From IMG/VR virus record IMGVR_UViG_3300021404_000002, positions 1 to 44,963 of that record: DNA of 44,963 nt; one strand, written 5' to 3'. The first letter of the stretch is position 1. Every line of letters begins with the position of its first letter. The notes beneath the pieces are model-generated. The model saw only the letters and a list, made by a program, of their open reading frames with translations, was not told the DNA's origin and did no database searches. Source of the DNA: a virus. Position numbers and translations under genes: made by a program. This document shows, one piece after another, positions 30,750-44,963 of the stretch.

Positions 30750-30872
30750 ATGAAGCGTTGCTCTGTGTGCCAGGTGTGGGGCTGGGGACGCGTGTTCATT
30801 CAGATCACGCTGAGGTGTGGCAAGTCGTGGGACGTGTTGGTGTGCACCGGCTGCGAGAAGCACCTGCACTAA
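30750..30872 (+). CDS. Small zinc-ribbon protein
   Basis: This is a 40-residue protein with CSVC at residues 4-7, a middle CGK and CTGC near residues 32-35, a typical two-knuckle zinc ribbon. The ATG at 30750 lies nine bases after GGAGG; an ATG at 30741 directly abuts it. It is the first early gene and is closed by its own strong terminator. Its role is unknown; such small zinc proteins often bind host transcription factors or nucleic acid. Confidence 0.6.
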   Translation: MKRCSVCQVWGWGRVFIQITLRCGKSWDVLVCTGCEKHLH

Positions 30873-30889: not shown

Positions 30890-30916
30890 GGACCAGCCCG
30901 AAGGCTGGTCCTTTTT
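30890..30916 (+). terminator. Rho-independent terminator
   Basis: GGACCAGCC-CGAA-GGCTGGTCC followed by TTTTT. It separates the 30750 gene from the following early genes. Confidence 0.92.
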
Positions 30917-31061
30917 CGTGTGTACGGAGCCTGGGTGAGTGGTAAGCTGTTGACTAGTCTTGTATTGATCAAGTAACGAACATGTCACAGCGTGTGCTGT
31001 GACCAGCCAACACTATCGTTACATTGTCGTGACTTGACAGCTAAGGCTGTCAGGAGGAGAG
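30917..31061 (+). promoter_or_regulatory. Early leader with two perfect hairpins
   Basis: A TTGACT at about 30951 may be a -35 element. Two perfect hairpins follow: GTCACAGC-GTGT-GCTGTGAC (30984-31003) and TGACAGC-TAAG-GCTGTCA (31035-31052). A GGAGGAGAG ribosome binding site (31053-31061) then precedes a TTG at 31068 that opens a frame of only nine codons. This may be a leader peptide. From 31098 to 31289 I see nothing certain. Confidence 0.45.
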
Positions 31062-31289
31062 TTCTCGTTGCAAGGCCAGGTACGAACAACCGAATAGCTC
31101 GGCTCCCTACAGCGCCGGATGATGCTCACGCTCGTTACGTAAGTGGGGACTACCGAACGGTTGCAGTGGTTGGCGGTTGCTTGATCCTTCTCAACTGAAG
31201 AAGCGGTGTGTACCAAACGGAAGCCAGAACGCCACGATCCTTTACAGGTGAGCGGAAGGCTGCCTAGTACGGCACACTGTGTTGATTAT

Positions 31290-31409
31290 GATCATTCTCT
31301 CTCCTTGAATGATCGTAGGCAGGCCTACCAGTGGTGCAAGCTGTTGGCTGGTCTGTCTGCGGTCATACGTTCCCAGACACAACGCCTGGTGACGTTGAGA
31401 GGAGAGATC
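31290..31409 (+). promoter_or_regulatory. Hairpin pair and ribosome binding site before 31410
   Basis: GATCATTC/GAATGATC (31290-31314) and the near-palindrome GTAGGC-AG-GCCTAC (31315-31328) lie upstream of GGAGAGATC-ATG. Confidence 0.55.
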
Positions 31410-31601
31410 ATGAACTGGTATCGAGTAACTGTCGAGTTCAACAACATTGACAGCGAGGGTCAGTCGTTCGTGGACAAGATCACCACCTTTCAGGTGGCCA
31501 AAAACGAGCACATGGCGTGCCTGATTGTCGGCGGTGAAGAGTGGGCTGGTGAGGACTTCAGCCACGTTGTGGACGTCTACGCCGTTCTGGAGACGAACTG
31601 A
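31410..31601 (+). CDS. Small early protein
   Basis: This 63-residue protein (MNWYRVTVEFNNIDSEGQSF...) is acidic with alternating beta-like segments. The start at ATG 31410 is set by the GGAGAGATC context shared by the early genes; the frame stays open upstream, but that part contains the hairpins and reads as leader. No family is recognised. Confidence 0.7.
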   Translation: MNWYRVTVEFNNIDSEGQSFVDKITTFQVAKNEHMACLIVGGEEWAGEDFSHVVDVYAVLETN

Positions 31602-31617
31602 CAAAGGTCGAAACCAC

Positions 31618-31679
31618 GGACATGCAATGCATGTCCTGGTCCGTGTGTTGTGCACACGCTGACGAGACCGTAGGAGAGA
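31618..31679 (+). promoter_or_regulatory. Start-associated hairpin before 31683
   Basis: GGACATGC-AAT-GCATGTCC (31618-31636), an 8-base perfect stem, lies upstream of TAGGAGAGA. Confidence 0.55.
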
Positions 31680-31682
31680 ATG

Positions 31683-31952
31683 ATGGACGAGATCGTGGAC
31701 TACATGGCCGAATACCGTATGGCTCCTGAGCTGATCCTGACTGGCTTTCGTAAAGAGGTCAGTTTCACGCTTGAGGTGGCCAAAGTCGGCGGCGGGACAC
31801 TGGGCAAAACATATGAGCCCGGTGAGAAGTGGATCGTCAACAGCTTCATCGATCACGAGCTGATGGAGTCTGTAGTTGTGGAAACTGTGTTTGCTGAACA
31901 AACCCACATGGATGTCATCAAGACATTCGCGGACAGTTGGTTTGGTGTCTGA
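31683..31952 (+). CDS. Small early protein
   Basis: This is an 89-residue protein from the second of two adjacent ATGs (31680 and 31683); the second is better spaced from AGGAGAGA. The sequence (MDEIVDYMAEYRMAPELILT ... TFADSWFGV) has helical ends and a beta-like centre. No family is recognised. Confidence 0.7.
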   Translation: MDEIVDYMAEYRMAPELILTGFRKEVSFTLEVAKVGGGTLGKTYEPGEKWIVNSFIDHELMESVVVETVFAEQTHMDVIKTFADSWFGV

Positions 31953-31975
31953 TCAAGAATTGACAGGTTTGCTTT

Positions 31976-32042
31976 GGTCACACGCCGTGTGACCTTAGTT
32001 GATCAATCAATCCGATTGGTCTTGACAAAGGAGAGAATAATC
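31976..32042 (+). promoter_or_regulatory. Start-associated hairpin before 32043
   Basis: GGTCACAC-GCC-GTGTGACC (31976-31994) is followed by TTGACAAAGGAGAGAATAATC-ATG in sections. A TTGACA also stands just before the hairpin (31960-31965). Confidence 0.55.
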
Positions 32043-32195
32043 ATGGCTGCTGCCACCATCAAGGCTGTCGCTGACTTCTTCGGGCGGAAGCCCGGTCAGA
32101 CCCTCAAGGACTGGTCGGAGGAGTGGAAGTTGCTGTCCGAGACGGACAAGGAGCAGATCAAGGAGGGTATCGGAAACGGCACCCTGACCTACTAG
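32043..32195 (+). CDS. Small early protein
   Basis: This is a 50-residue protein, MAAATIKAVADFFGRKPGQT then LKDWSEEWKLLSETDKEQIK, likely a three-helix bundle. The pattern of a short N-terminal helix followed by LKDWSEEWKxLxxxDKEQIKxG is common in small actinobacteriophage early proteins of unknown role. The ribosome binding site GGAGAGA is ideally spaced. Confidence 0.7.
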   Translation: MAAATIKAVADFFGRKPGQTLKDWSEEWKLLSETDKEQIKEGIGNGTLTY

Positions 32196-32220
32196 CCCCG
32201 TCGAAACCCCGGGAGGGGTC

Positions 32221-32274
32221 TGTACAAGTTGGCTACTTGTGCACTGATGAGACAAGCCACGAGGAGAGAAGATC
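32221..32274 (+). promoter_or_regulatory. Start-associated hairpin before 32275
   Basis: TGTACAAGT-TGGCT-ACTTGTGCA (32221-32243, one G:U pair) lies upstream of GAGGAGAGAAGATC-ATG. Confidence 0.55.
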
Positions 32275-32703
32275 ATGGGAAATCCAGAACTGAACTACAC
32301 CCTGTTCGATCTGGTCGATGCCGTACGTGAGGCAGCGGCCGAAAACCCCGACTTCGTGTATGCGCGTCGGGACTTCCCCAACTGTGAGGGTGTTTGCACC
32401 TACACCATGTCGGACGGGACTCCTGACTGCATCATCGGTGTTGGTCTGGCCAAGTGTGGTGACCCTGTTCCCGCCTGGGATGAGCAAAAGTTTTATCGGA
32501 TCTCGAAAGATCGTGAAATCGCAGGTTTCGCTAAACGTGTCTGGGACGACTATTTCAACCCGACCAGTGAGAGCGAATACATCGCGTTCAATTGGTTGGC
32601 TTGTGTGCAAACCCGCCAGGACGCCGGTGAAGCTTGGGGCGAGGCTATCGAGGTCGCTAACTCAAGATTCCCCCGCATTATGGAGATCCACCCTGCCCGC
32701 TGA
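32275..32703 (+). CDS. Early protein of a three-member paralogous family (a)
   Basis: This is a 142-residue acidic protein. The key segment is CTYTMSDGTPDCIIGVGLAK (about residues 40-60), matched by CYYTTEDGCPDCIIGHAMAR in the gene at 32784 and more distantly by MTECILGQVF in the one at 33465. The N-terminal helix (LFDLVDAVREAAAENPDFVY) and the C-terminal helix (NWLACVQTRQDAGEAWGEAI) also match. The conserved Cys-Ile-Ile-Gly core suggests a fold seen in other actinobacteriophage early proteins of unknown function. Tandem duplication is likely. Confidence 0.75.
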   Translation: MGNPELNYTLFDLVDAVREAAAENPDFVYARRDFPNCEGVCTYTMSDGTPDCIIGVGLAKCGDPVPAWDEQKFYRISKDREIAGFAKRVWDDYFNPTSESEYIAFNWLACVQTRQDAGEAWGEAIEVANSRFPRIMEIHPAR

Positions 32704-32714
32704 TTCTAGCGGTT

Positions 32715-32783
32715 GGTACACGTTTCATACGTGTACCTTCCAGATGACTCAGAAGGGTTGTCTATCTCTCAAGGAGGGTGATC
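32715..32783 (+). promoter_or_regulatory. Start-associated hairpin before 32784
   Basis: GGTACACGT-TTCAT-ACGTGTACC (32715-32737), a 9-base perfect stem, lies upstream of AAGGAGGGTGATC-ATG. Confidence 0.6.
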
Positions 32784-33173
32784 ATGTATCGCAACGGTGA
32801 CAGAATCGACGCCGAAAAACTGATTCAGGCGGTGCGTGAAATCGCGGCGGAGTGGCCAGACGTCGTGTACCCGGCCAATCTCGATTCGAGCGGACCGGCA
32901 TGCTACTACACGACCGAGGACGGCTGCCCGGACTGCATTATCGGACATGCCATGGCTCGCATCGGTCAGGCACTCCCCGCACAACAGCGCAGCGGCATGA
33001 ATGAGTGCCGCCTGCTCAACTATAGTGTTCGAGAGACGGTCTGGTCGGGCGTACTCAACACCACGCGGGAAAATCTGCTGTGGTTGGCCACGGTGCAGAA
33101 CTACCAGGATAGCGGTTACACCTGGGCCACCGCTGTGAGCCGCGCGGATAACGAGCTTGAAGGGCGCGAATAA
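32784..33173 (+). CDS. Early protein of a three-member paralogous family (b)
   Basis: This 129-residue protein is a paralogue of the gene at 32275: helix AEKLIQAVREIAAEWPDVVY, then CYYTTEDGCPDCIIGHAMAR and a C-terminal LWLATVQNYQDSGYTWATAV. Its TAA overlaps the next ATG (TAATG), so 33173 is coupled to it. Function unknown. Confidence 0.75.
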   Translation: MYRNGDRIDAEKLIQAVREIAAEWPDVVYPANLDSSGPACYYTTEDGCPDCIIGHAMARIGQALPAQQRSGMNECRLLNYSVRETVWSGVLNTTRENLLWLATVQNYQDSGYTWATAVSRADNELEGRE

Positions 33174-33385
33174 TGTCTATGTCGCGCAGGCACTATCGTG
33201 AAGTGGCACAGCTCATCAAAGAAGCCTACAGTGAGCATTTCGATACAGAATGCTCGCCTGCCTACGTGCAAGGTTGGCTTCTGTCGTATGTGGCGGCGGG
33301 GTTGGCAACCATGTTCGAGTTGGACAACACCAACTTCGACCGGTACAAGTTCATAGAGGCTTGTTTCCCGTACACTGGTGAGTAG
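33173..33385 (+). CDS. Small early protein
   Basis: This is a 70-residue protein (MSMSRRHYREVAQLIKEAYS ... FIEACFPYTGE), mainly helical. The helix-start RRHYREVAQLIKEAY and the DTECSPAYVQGWLLSYVAAG segment recur as a small family in actinobacteriophages with unknown role. It is translated from the overlapping stop/start of the preceding gene and has no hairpin of its own, unlike most early genes. Confidence 0.7.
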   Translation: MSMSRRHYREVAQLIKEAYSEHFDTECSPAYVQGWLLSYVAAGLATMFELDNTNFDRYKFIEACFPYTGE

Positions 33386-33391
33386 TTCGTG

Positions 33392-33464
33392 GTGCTGGGG
33401 CTCTGTCCCAGCACTGCCTAGATCACGCCAGTGGTCTGTTTCGCAAAGGAGAGAAGGTCACAGC
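33392..33464 (+). promoter_or_regulatory. Start-associated hairpin before 33465
   Basis: GTGCTGGG-GCTCTGT-CCCAGCAC (33392-33414) lies upstream of AAAGGAGAGAAGGTC; the ATG follows after a longer spacer. Confidence 0.55.
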
Positions 33465-33794
33465 ATGTGTGAATCGTGTGAGCTGCCAGAAGCTGCTGAT
33501 GAGTGCGTGGCTGCTGGTATCGCCTGGCTTGACCGGAATGTCCCTGGTGACTGGCGAAGCCGTGTGAACCTGCGCACCCTGAACATCGAAAACATGACTG
33601 AGTGCATTCTGGGCCAGGTGTTCCGGGACGCAGCCATCGCCCGCGATCACTGCGGCTACGAATATGCGGTAACAACCTTCTTTGAAGGTATGTACGAAGA
33701 TTACATCACTGGTCCTTTGGGCTTCAGCAACTTTGAAGACATCGACTGCGCCGAAATGACCGAAGCTTGGGTACGCGCGCTCAGCGCAGAGTAA
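33465..33794 (+). CDS. Early protein of a three-member paralogous family (c)
   Basis: This is a 109-residue acidic protein starting MCESCELPEAADECVAAGIA. Its central NMTECILGQVFRDA corresponds to the PDCIIG core of the genes at 32275 and 32784, so it is a diverged third member. The CxxC at the N-terminus is not shared. The ATG at 33465 is set by the ribosome binding site; upstream in-frame codons cover the hairpin. Confidence 0.65.
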   Translation: MCESCELPEAADECVAAGIAWLDRNVPGDWRSRVNLRTLNIENMTECILGQVFRDAAIARDHCGYEYAVTTFFEGMYEDYITGPLGFSNFEDIDCAEMTEAWVRALSAE

Positions 33795-33814
33795 CGCTAG
33801 TCAACCTAGCTAGT

Positions 33815-33891
33815 GGTCAGCAGCTTAAACTCTGTTGACCTCTAAGATGGCTGAGTGGCTGTCTGTTTCAAAGAACGAGGAGAGAATGAAC
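33815..33891 (+). promoter_or_regulatory. Start-associated hairpin before 33892
   Basis: GGTCAGCAG/CTGTTGACC (33815-33840, one G:U pair, 8-base loop) lies upstream of GAGGAGAGAATGAAC-ATG. Confidence 0.5.
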
Positions 33892-34140
33892 ATGGGAAAG
33901 TATTTCGTTGAGGTGCAGAGCGGCGGTGAAACCACCACGATCCCAGTCGAGGCCTACTCACCTGTTGAGGCAGCTTTTATTGCGGGAACTGGGGTGGGCG
34001 TCACCATTGGACTCCTCGGTACTGGCGGTGTCCTGAGCGATCTCACGGCTGAAGATGCCGGTGCCGAAATCATGGACATTGCTCAACAGGAGCTGTCTGG
34101 TGTGCTCGTTCGGGAGGAACGCTATGTCAACGCGCACTGA
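33892..34140 (+). CDS. Small early protein with hydrophobic middle
   Basis: This 82-residue protein begins MGKYFVEVQSGGETTTIPVE, then has a hydrophobic Gly-rich stretch (AAFIAGTGVGVTIGLLGTGG) that could be a membrane helix, and an acidic end. The second ATG (33892) is better spaced from GGAGAGA than the one at 33886. It overlaps the next gene by 17 bases. Function unknown. Confidence 0.65.
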   Translation: MGKYFVEVQSGGETTTIPVEAYSPVEAAFIAGTGVGVTIGLLGTGGVLSDLTAEDAGAEIMDIAQQELSGVLVREERYVNAH

Positions 34141-34336
34141 CCAGGGTGTAATCACCAAGCTGGAAAAGCTGTTGGGCAGCTTTTCCTGGCGTGTAACACT
34201 CGACAACGGCAACAGCTATCAAACCGTGCCTAATTCCATGGTTTCGTACGAGATCGACAACAGTGTTTATCGCGGTGTGACAGTGCAGTTGTCCCTCACA
34301 GACCGTTTCCGCGTGTTCGACATTACGGTGATCTGA
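34124..34336 (+). CDS. Small early protein
   Basis: This 70-residue, beta-rich protein begins MSTRTDQGVITKLEKLLGSF and ends in FRVFDITVI. The start at 34124 follows CGGGAGGAACGCT. It lies within the end of the previous gene and has no hairpin of its own. No family is recognised. Confidence 0.6.
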   Translation: MSTRTDQGVITKLEKLLGSFSWRVTLDNGNSYQTVPNSMVSYEIDNSVYRGVTVQLSLTDRFRVFDITVI

Positions 34337-34354
34337 AAAGGAGAAGTGATCAAA

Positions 34355-34576
34355 ATGGCCCTTTATCTGGTGCTGCGCACCGACTGCATCAGCTACGACG
34401 AATACGACGGTGCGGTGATTTCTGCTGAGTCTCCGTCGCATGCCTTGGCCATTGCCAGGGAAAATCTTTCCGGTGCGGTGACGGCGTATGGCTTCCACGA
34501 AGACAACACCGTGGTTGAGGAGATCCTCAACACCGTTGGGTACGGAGTTCTTTTGGGGTCATTCAACGCAGGCTGA
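34355..34576 (+). CDS. Small early protein
   Basis: This is a 73-residue protein. The start MALYLVLRTDCISYDEYDGA with later SPSHALAIARENL resembles small proteins in which a beta strand leads into a helix that begins with SPSHALA. The pattern is common in actinobacteriophage early regions. AAAGGAGAAGTGATCAAA precedes the ATG. Function unknown. Confidence 0.7.
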   Translation: MALYLVLRTDCISYDEYDGAVISAESPSHALAIARENLSGAVTAYGFHEDNTVVEEILNTVGYGVLLGSFNAG

Positions 34577-34582
34577 CAGTTC

Positions 34583-34650
34583 GACTGGTCTGCATCTTCG
34601 GGTGTAGGCTGGTCTCTCTGGCAGGGTGCTGGAGTCAAGGAGGGAAGATC
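34583..34650 (+). promoter_or_regulatory. Long start-associated hairpin with TTCG loop before 34651
   Basis: 34583-34596 pairs with 34601-34614 over 14 positions, several of them G:U, closed by a TTCG tetraloop, a known very stable RNA loop. AAGGAGGGAAGATC-ATG follows. Confidence 0.6.
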
Positions 34651-34893
34651 ATGGCTATGCCGACATGGCGAGTCACTTTCACGGTAATGCCCGGCTCGGT
34701 GCCGGTGCCTGGTGCAAAAATCCACGTAGACGTCACTGCTCCAAACATGGATCAGGCTATCTTCCAGGCGACCATTGAAATGATTGCTGCTTTGGAAGCT
34801 GCCTCACAAGCTGGTCTGGAGACCGTGTTCAACCGCATGTGTGAAGCTGTTGTGGGACACGAGATCGACGTGGACGTGGAGAGGAGGCACTGA
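34651..34893 (+). CDS. Small early protein
   Basis: This 80-residue protein has a beta-rich N-terminus (MAMPTWRVTFTVMPGSVPVP) followed by a helix (MDQAIFQATIEMIAALEAAS). The shape resembles the proteins at 33892 and 34355 (beta strand, then an S/N-x-x-x-A helix). No family name can be given. The next gene starts two bases after its end. Confidence 0.65.
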   Translation: MAMPTWRVTFTVMPGSVPVPGAKIHVDVTAPNMDQAIFQATIEMIAALEAASQAGLETVFNRMCEAVVGHEIDVDVERRH

Positions 34894-34894
34894 C

Positions 34895-35173
34895 GTGGAC
34901 CCGAACAAGACGCTTGAGAACATCCGTGAGCTGATCAAGGCTGCAAACAGCGACCCAACAGTTATCTACGAAGATGGGGGCTGGATGTTTCTGTTGATCG
35001 AAGAGCTGGACGGGTGGCTGTCCAAGGGTGGTTTCCTGCCCGATCGTTGGGTCGGAGGCGAACGTTTCGTAGCCTGTGGAGAGCAGTTTAAGGTGATCGA
35101 CACGTCGTTTGACGACAACGATGGTGAGTACTCCCGCTACACTGTGTGGGTTGAAGAGGGACTAGAAGACTGA
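34895..35173 (+). CDS. Small early protein
   Basis: This is a 92-residue acidic protein, MDPNKTLENIRELIKAANSD then a Trp/Gly-rich middle (WMFLLIEELDGWLSKGGFLP). The start is GTG at 34895, preceded by GAGGAGG. A similar pattern (ENIRELIKAAN...ELDGWLSKGGFLPxxW) is frequent in actinobacteriophage genomes, function unknown. A strong hairpin follows its stop. Confidence 0.7.
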   Translation: MDPNKTLENIRELIKAANSDPTVIYEDGGWMFLLIEELDGWLSKGGFLPDRWVGGERFVACGEQFKVIDTSFDDNDGEYSRYTVWVEEGLED

Positions 35174-35184
35174 ATGTAGCCCTT

Positions 35185-35252
35185 AGTCTACGGACTCCGG
35201 TCCGTAGACTTTGGAAGTCATTCAGGTCGAATGACGGATAGGAGAGAACGAC
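35185..35252 (+). promoter_or_regulatory. Two hairpins between early genes
   Basis: AGTCTACGGAC-TCCG-GTCCGTAGACT (35185-35210, 11 pairs) is followed by TTT and may terminate. GTCATTC-AGGTC-GAATGAC (35217-35235) is the start-associated hairpin for 35253, followed by TAGGAGAGAACGAC-ATG. Confidence 0.6.
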
Positions 35253-44177: not shown

Positions 44178-44963
44178 ATGAGACAACTCGCCAACGGCAG
44201 CATCCTAGTCCCTGAGGACTATAGGGACCTGGCCAAGATGTTTGACTGGATGGAACGCCAGCACACGCTGGCGCTGGACACAGAGACCACAGGTCTCGAC
44301 ATCTACTCTGATGGCCACAGGCTCCGCTTGATCGCTTTGGCTACGCCTTCACAGGCGTATGTGTTCCCGTACGAGACGTTCCCGGACAAGATCTGGCAAA
44401 CTCTTAAGAGCTTGCTTGGCAAGCGGCTTATCATGCACAATGCAAGTTATGACATCCAGGTGACCAATCGTCACTTCGGTGACGAACTGCCTCGTTACAT
44501 CGAAAAGCTTTGGTCGCAGACTAGGGACACCAAGATTCTTGCCCATCAGATCGATCCTCGTGGACGTGATGAAGGCGGTATTGGACAGTCTCTAGAAGAG
44601 CTTCTGGCACATTATGTGCCAGACTGTCACAAACTTAAGAAGGAACTGACAGATGAATACATCCGACTCAGAAAAGCAGGGGAGCTACCAAAGGAAGCCT
44701 CTGCCAAAATTGCGGACATGTACCGATGGATGCCAATTGACAACGAACTCTTCCTCATCTACGCAGGGACAGACGCCATCGGAACAGCCAGGCTCTTCCA
44801 GCAACTCCAAAAGCAAATAGACATCAAGTCAAAACTGACCAAGGACGATCACAAAGTTGCGATGATCGCAACCCTTATGGATGCCAAAGGCTTCCTGCTG
44901 GACGAAGACTACACCCGAGATCTTGCTAACTCCTTGTGGGATCAGGAGGAACAACAGAAGGCC
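44178..44963 (+). CDS. polA: DNA polymerase I (family A), N-terminal part; continues at base 1
   Basis: The first 262 codons of the 597-residue polymerase lie here, up to the window end; codons from 44837 on repeat the start of the window. MRQLANGSILVPEDYRDLAK is followed by the 3'-5' exonuclease motif ALDTETTGLDIY and later MHNASYDIQV-type (HNASYD) and YAGTDAIGTARLF motifs, giving the DEDD residues. There is no ribosome binding site before the ATG (44178), and the -10 box ends seven bases upstream, which supports leaderless translation. The polymerase domain is at 1-1135. Confidence 0.95.
   Translation, partial: MRQLANGSILVPEDYRDLAKMFDWMERQHTLALDTETTGLDIYSDGHRLRLIALATPSQAYVFPYETFPDKIWQTLKSLLGKRLIMHNASYDIQVTNRHFGDELPRYIEKLWSQTRDTKILAHQIDPRGRDEGGIGQSLEELLAHYVPDCHKLKKELTDEYIRLRKAGELPKEASAKIADMYRWMPIDNELFLIYAGTDAIGTARLFQQLQKQIDIKSKLTKDDHKVAMIATLMDAKGFLLDEDYTRDLANSLWDQEEQQKA
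44837..44963. repeat. Right copy of 127-base terminal duplication
   Basis: Identical to bases 1-127; see the left copy. Removing it joins the polymerase gene in frame. Confidence 0.9.

Follow-up and report, generated by a model that had tools for sequence, protein, structure and literature searches.

Introduction

Type II hammerhead ribozymes are known from phages and prophages (PMC3088659; RF02276). Perreault et al. (2011) showed cleavage for prophage hammerheads and suggested that, where phage hammerheads are clustered, they serve to process long transcripts, yielding single-gene mRNAs (PMC3088659), while the question of why phages carry them had stayed open. Here we describe the early-gene leaders of a soil phage genome, IMG/VR record IMGVR_UViG_3300021404_000002, whose 44,963 nucleotides as a whole are called the window. 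Two of its leaders resemble the described hammerheads in core, type II topology, number (several per genome) and position near start codons. Unlike the clusters described before (PMC3088659), however, hammerheads are a minority of the leaders here, and an unrelated structure, a hairpin followed by an H-type pseudoknot (HPK), holds most positions.

Another described system is the start-associated sequences (SAS) of cluster K mycobacteriophages, a conserved 13-bp sequence that can be accompanied by inverted repeats with a consensus (extended SAS, ESAS) (PMC3203893). The initial annotation of the window was reminded of these, and both are indeed repeated inverted-repeat elements before the starts of non-structural genes in an actinophage (PMC3203893). 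The likeness breaks down because SAS and ESAS conserve sequence whereas the window leaders conserve structure only, and also have pseudoknots and hammerheads. The 13-bp GGGATAGGAGCCC was not found before window starts, which bear GGAGAGA or GGAGGG instead, nor were 17-bp inverted repeats with a shared consensus, as the window stems have no common sequence. When TM4 (25000-52797) was scanned, neither HPK nor hammerhead appeared; the extended sites of TM4 resemble promoter palindromes of the TTGACA type.

In phage T7, RNase III sites between the early genes are long stems cut by the host enzyme. The window likewise has one folded RNA per early gene junction, which would split the early transcript, but at least two of its leaders are predicted ribozymes and HPK has a pseudoknot; T7-type RNase III sites are a possible identity of the leaders. 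The RiboJ insulator, engineered from plant satellite RNA, carries a hammerhead and a hairpin directly before the ribosome site and fixes the mRNA 5′ end. The window elements have the same placement, but are natural and repeated along the early gene cluster.

The record has identical 127-base ends (1-127 and 44837-44963) and so closes to a 44,836-base circle or overlap. Its terminase is 44% identical to those of Streptomyces podoviruses, subfamily Beephvirinae. Early regions were compared with those of close relatives in IMG/VR (terminase ~82% identical); loci other than the window are designated by L and a number. A search for related loci with an early protein as query found none.

Two early leaders are type II hammerheads

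By sequence and fold, two window leaders are complete type II hammerhead ribozymes, both containing CUGANGA, GAA, A15.1-U16.1 and H17. Among the loci searched, the descriptor used, which demands every core letter, matched leaders only, all directly 5′ of a ribosome site: both window leaders, plus homologues in L010, L014, L018 and L020.

The leader of gene 31680 (31606..31669, plus strand) has stem II GGTC/GACC followed by GAA, stem III (A)CCAcGGACATGC-aat-GCATGTCCTGG(T), C17 at 31641 with predicted cleavage at 31641^31642, and stem I CGTGTG-ttgtg-CACACG followed by CTGACGA. The minimum-energy fold of 31600-31676 is the hammerhead, with three stems joined at the core and stem II open. In the L018 homologue the core is unchanged, while stems I and III are rewritten by compensatory changes.

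The leader of gene 32275 (32200..32253, plus strand) is identified by the descriptor and, below the cut-off, by Rfam, which also matches relatives. It has stem II GTC/GAC, GAA, stem III ACCCC-GGGA-GGGGT, C17 at 32220 with predicted cleavage at 32220^32221, and stem I TGTACAAGT-TGGCT-ACTTGTGCA followed by CTGATGA; the stem I loop TGGCT is able to pair with AGCCA at 32255-32259. Alignment of leaders here gives the order GTC-GAAA, hairpin, TC, second hairpin, CTGATGA-GAC, and the plan is the same at 31606-31669. RF02276 (Hammerhead_II) matches 32199-32261 with 26.6 bits (E 0.038) and relatives L010 and L014 with 33.2 and 29.6 bits, the gathering score of 37 being the curators' detection threshold and not a property of the ribozyme. 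Judged from sequence, both window hammerheads would be expected to cut in the cell.

In other viral contigs, 186 type II hammerheads were found in 115 loci. A ribosome site and start lie at most 60 nt downstream in 139 of them (median 23), matching the layout that Perreault et al. described (PMC3088659). Copies in L159 and L179 reach the Rfam gathering score, up to seven of them above the cut-off in one locus. By descriptor, L159, L179 and L133 have 7-8 copies each, and most of this set stand directly before genes.

Most other leaders share a hairpin and a pseudoknot

The stem-loop alone, on which the initial annotation had focused, is the wrong unit: two leaders are hammerheads, and most of the others share the one structure that we name HPK. 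From the 5′ side, a strand a is followed after ~4-12 nt by a 2-bp foot, UU, a stem of 8-11 bp, UU and the complement of the foot, which gives the first hairpin a foot and a tandem U·U internal loop. A second hairpin, c-a′-c′, comes next; its loop a′ pairs with strand a upstream of the first hairpin, and GGAGAGA follows. Applied to both strands of 226 kb, a strict descriptor (NN-UU-stem-UU-N′N′) gave 24 matches on the early strand; the opposite strand gave 2 and block-shuffled sequence 0. The U·U loop is constant in the strict set because the descriptor required UU·UU; other mismatches occur at this position in the wider set.

Covariation was examined in the first hairpin of 13 leaders of equal length. 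There, 97.4% of the cells pair, 11 of the 12 pairs vary on both sides, and the covariation score was attained by 0 of 500 shuffles. Thus the initial annotation was right that structure is kept and not sequence, since the stems differ while pairing is retained. A covariance model made from sequence outside the window finds 32693-32765 (E 8e-4) and 35163-35238 (E 3e-4) in the window, and also leaders in genomes excluded from its construction.

The pseudoknot was tested by swapping upstream strands among leaders. Strands fit their own partner better than those of other leaders, both in 33 leaders of the window family (p ~1e-4) and, strongly, in 37 Streptomyces phage leaders (z 7.8). Perfect pseudoknots of 6-7 bp include CTACTGA/TCAGTAG (L013), CTGAATG/CATTCAG (L010), CTGAGTT/AACTCAG (FlowerPower) and, in Immanuel3, CTGGAT/ATCCAG and CTGAGT/ACTCAG.

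HPK occurs in nine cultured Streptomyces phages, including FlowerPower, Abafar, Immanuel3, Manuel and Stella. Two further viral contigs, L239 and L243, have HPK leaders with pseudoknots of their own. The distant relatives L025-L081 (terminase 40% identical) were rejected as carriers, their strict matches being sporadic and without context.

In Rfam 15, no covariance model matches the window HPK leaders at E up to 10, and no credible match was found to those of relatives or Streptomyces phages. A ZTP riboswitch in L014 was rejected (26.3 bits, E 2.7), as the score is far under the cut-off and the core is absent. HPK looks like a new RNA family, although the literature compared consists of open-access papers and an earlier description elsewhere is possible. 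Its architecture is simple, its pairs covary strongly and it is present many times per genome, in phages that can be grown on laboratory strains of Streptomyces.

Hammerhead and HPK exchange within gene families

When early proteins were clustered, five families had a hammerhead leader in one member and an HPK in another. The hammerhead at 31680 corresponds to HPK in L007, L012 and L013, and the one at 32275 to HPK at 32784 (a second copy in the window) and at L010 5441. The hammerhead at L010 5940 has HPK counterparts at L013 15032 and window 33465, while that at L018 5001 faces HPK at L016 14237. In the fifth family, a hammerhead gene of L014 is matched by HPK in L007, L010 and L012. Because the two elements fill the same gene slot, one can ask directly what the slot is for: its function is whatever both do.

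Possible roles of the leaders

Almost every early gene carries its own small folded RNA, which probably delimits the long mRNA gene by gene. We consider it reasonably likely that the early region is punctuated at the RNA level, with hammerheads and HPKs separating single-gene mRNAs. This punctuation model builds on what the computation gave, namely the sequence and fold of the hammerheads, the structure and covariation of HPK, the position of both and their exchange in gene families. The interval between one early stop codon and the next ribosome site holds a compact folded RNA of 55-70 nt, consisting of hairpin 1, hairpin 2, GGAGAGA and the start. In a hammerhead, stem III is hairpin 1 and stem I is hairpin 2, and the predicted cut falls between them. 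The upstream mRNA would therefore end in a terminal 3′ hairpin with a 2′,3′-cyclic phosphate, and the downstream mRNA would start with a 5′-OH and a 5′ hairpin, followed by the ribosome site. From the same layout in the same slot we infer that HPK, too, marks borders of single-gene mRNAs. It would separate and standardise their ends either by being cut, by itself or by a host nuclease, or by blocking nucleases and read-through translation. HPK would then be a putative processing or protection element, presumably to the benefit of the phage. If so, these phages carry a natural set of ribozyme-like insulators of the kind that synthetic biologists build by hand.

Several observations weigh against punctuation by both elements. 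The hammerhead at 32199-32261 is below the Rfam gathering score (26.6 against 37), and that at 31606-31669 is unlisted by Rfam. In 8 further leaders (L101, L104, L111) the strand-swap test was not significant, although two of them have 7-bp pseudoknots, and the pseudoknot of some leaders is short (3-4 bp) or unclear (32043, 33886). HPK lacks invariant unpaired letters outside the U·U loop, so that nothing points to self-cutting. Finally, a role in translation only or in protein binding suits HPK nearly as well.

In the translational alternative, which we regard as rather unlikely, no RNA processing takes place, and the pseudoknot insulates a gene from ribosomes ending upstream or holds the ribosome site open. 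The geometry agrees with this: the upstream pseudoknot strand is at or near the preceding stop codon, which it overlaps at 32784; the distance from the end of the second hairpin to the ribosome site has a median of 10 nt; and in Streptomyces phages the strand overlaps the stop codon in 8 of 25 cases and otherwise lies mostly within ~16 nt. Overlap as a rule was rejected on the same 8 of 25. That hammerheads occupy the same place in the same gene families points to mRNA ends instead. Pseudoknots can also be operator sites, as in T4 gene 32, and the uniform architecture and kept tandem U·U loop in one phage group would suit a binding site through which a single protein, from phage or host, governs all the early genes jointly. 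Beyond the U·U letters and the shape, however, there is little shared sequence for a protein to read, and we hold this to be improbable.

It is comparably doubtful that HPK itself is a new class of self-cutting RNA. HPK swaps with hammerheads inside gene families, has the same order of hairpin, hairpin and ribosome site, and matches no Rfam family, but it is without an invariant core of unpaired letters, unlike known self-cutting classes. The broader proposal, that HPK is a new self-cutting or otherwise self-processing RNA alternating with hammerheads as gene-by-gene punctuation of early mRNA, likewise has a slim chance. Least of all do we expect the hairpins to act as DNA, that is, as terminators, promoters or operators. 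They are inverted repeats between genes, and one true terminator-like site exists at 30890, yet no T run comes after the leader stems: in a test for intrinsic terminators, UUCC, UUGG or the second hairpin followed them and not a U run. As the stems are wholly different in sequence, no single DNA-binding protein could read them, and the pseudoknot pairing makes sense in RNA only. Hairpin promoters for an N4-like virion RNA polymerase were rejected, since the only match of the 1555-aa virion protein was to a PHROG of unknown function and the loops vary; none of the proteins examined was recognised as an RNA polymerase.

Stems and HPK leaders in the window

Counted over the window together with seven close relatives, 69 early leaders have a GGAG(A/G)G site. 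In 45 of these the perfect stem spans 8 bp or more, compared with 1.2% of dinucleotide shuffles. The hairpins are real, and their excess over shuffles, which the initial annotation had made decisive, is large, but the details of that annotation need correction. Among the eleven hairpins it listed as perfect, eight are Watson-Crick throughout at 7 bp or more (30984, 31035, 31290, 31618, 31976, 32715, 33392 and 35217). The other three contain wobbles: 32221 reaches 9 pairs only with G·U allowed, 33815 has one G·U and 34583 several wobbles. No stem attains 14 pairs, the upper end of the range given, and a perfect 11-bp hairpin at 35185 was absent from the list. Three hairpins (30984, 31035 and 31290) do not belong to gene leaders: they sit in a conserved non-coding stretch of 480 nt that precedes the first early gene, and in relatives those at 30984 and 31035 are not preserved as hairpins. 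Individually, the leaders of genes 31680, 32043, 32784, 33465 and 35253 are above dinucleotide shuffles (P 0.00-0.03), whereas perfect-stem length is not for genes 31410, 32275, 33886, 34651 and 35683. Coupled genes do lack the hairpin, the longest stem at 33173, 34127, 34355 and 34895 being 4 bp. GGAGAGA or GGAGGG and GATCATG are present before starts as described, and GGAG(A/G)G..GATCATG looks like an extended match to the 16S rRNA 3′ end (complement AAAGGAGGUGAUCC).

All leaders below are on the plus strand. For gene 32784, the leader (32700..32763; fold z -5.8) is found by the descriptor and the held-out model. Its strand CTGA (32700-32703) shares bases with the stop codon upstream, and is followed by GG-TT-(GGTACACGT ttcat ACGTGTACC)-TT-CC at 32711-32741 and the second hairpin AGATGAC-[TCAG]aagg-GTTGTCT at 32742-32763. 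That of gene 35253 (35170..35235; fold z -5.4), identified in the same two ways, has strand CTGAATG (35170-35176), CC-TT-(AGTCTACGGAC tccg GTCCGTAGACT)-TT-GG (35181-35214) and second hairpin GTCATTC-aggtc-GAATGAC (35217-35235), in which CATTCAG, lying within the 5′ arm and loop, can alternatively pair with CTGAATG. Similar leaders were found in L016 and L018.

The HPK leader of gene 33465 (33376..33437; fold z -2.9), assigned from sequence, has strand TGGT (33376-33379), hairpin GTGCTGGG-gctctgt-CCCAGCAC (33392-33414) and second hairpin AGATCAC-gcca-GTGGTCT (33420-33437). An HPK-type leader precedes gene 32043 (31972..32021; strict match, fold z -2.7 against shuffles), with CT-TT-(GGTCACAC gcc GTGTGACC)-TT-AG and then hairpin GATCAATC-aatcc-GATTGGTC; its pseudoknot partner is unclear, and the second hairpin is missing from the minimum-energy fold. 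Weaker is the HPK-like leader of gene 33886 (33815..33864), where GGTCAGCAG-cttaaact-CTGTTGACC, with its one G·U, is followed by AGATGGC-tgagtg-GCTGTCT and perfect-stem length alone is not significant. The imperfect hairpin GGTCTGCATC-ttcg-GGTGTAGGCT of gene 34651 (34585..34608) is a doubtful member, not above shuffles.

Conserved blocks ahead of the early genes

Hairpin 31290 includes an invariant non-coding block, ATGATCATTCTCTCTCCTTGAA (31288..31309, plus strand). The block precedes the early genes without being the leader of any one of them, and its sequence is antisense to the consensus at early-gene starts, AAGGAGAGA..ATGATCAT. Its first 19 letters are exact in 14 IMG/VR contigs, and 21 columns are invariant across 9 aligned relatives. 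Carriers are L007, L009, L010, L012, L013, L014, L016, L018, L087 and further IMG/VR contigs. In Streptomyces relatives, it is the loop of a hairpin, CTCTCTCCC, that is antisense to the start motif which these phages use, GGGAGAGAG; loop and motif thus change together from one group to the other. The block is a possible candidate for a phage antisense regulator of early translation. A minus-strand gene here was rejected, as the open reading frames range from 14 to 137 codons and are not conserved.

A second conserved non-coding block, ATCGTTAC..CGTGACTTGAC..GGAGGAG(A/T)GTTCTCG (window 31010-31075), lies ~210-280 nt upstream of the 31288 block. Farther upstream, a typical intrinsic terminator, GGACCAGCCCGAAGGCTGGTCCTTTTT, is found at 30890-30916, downstream of the small gene at 30750.

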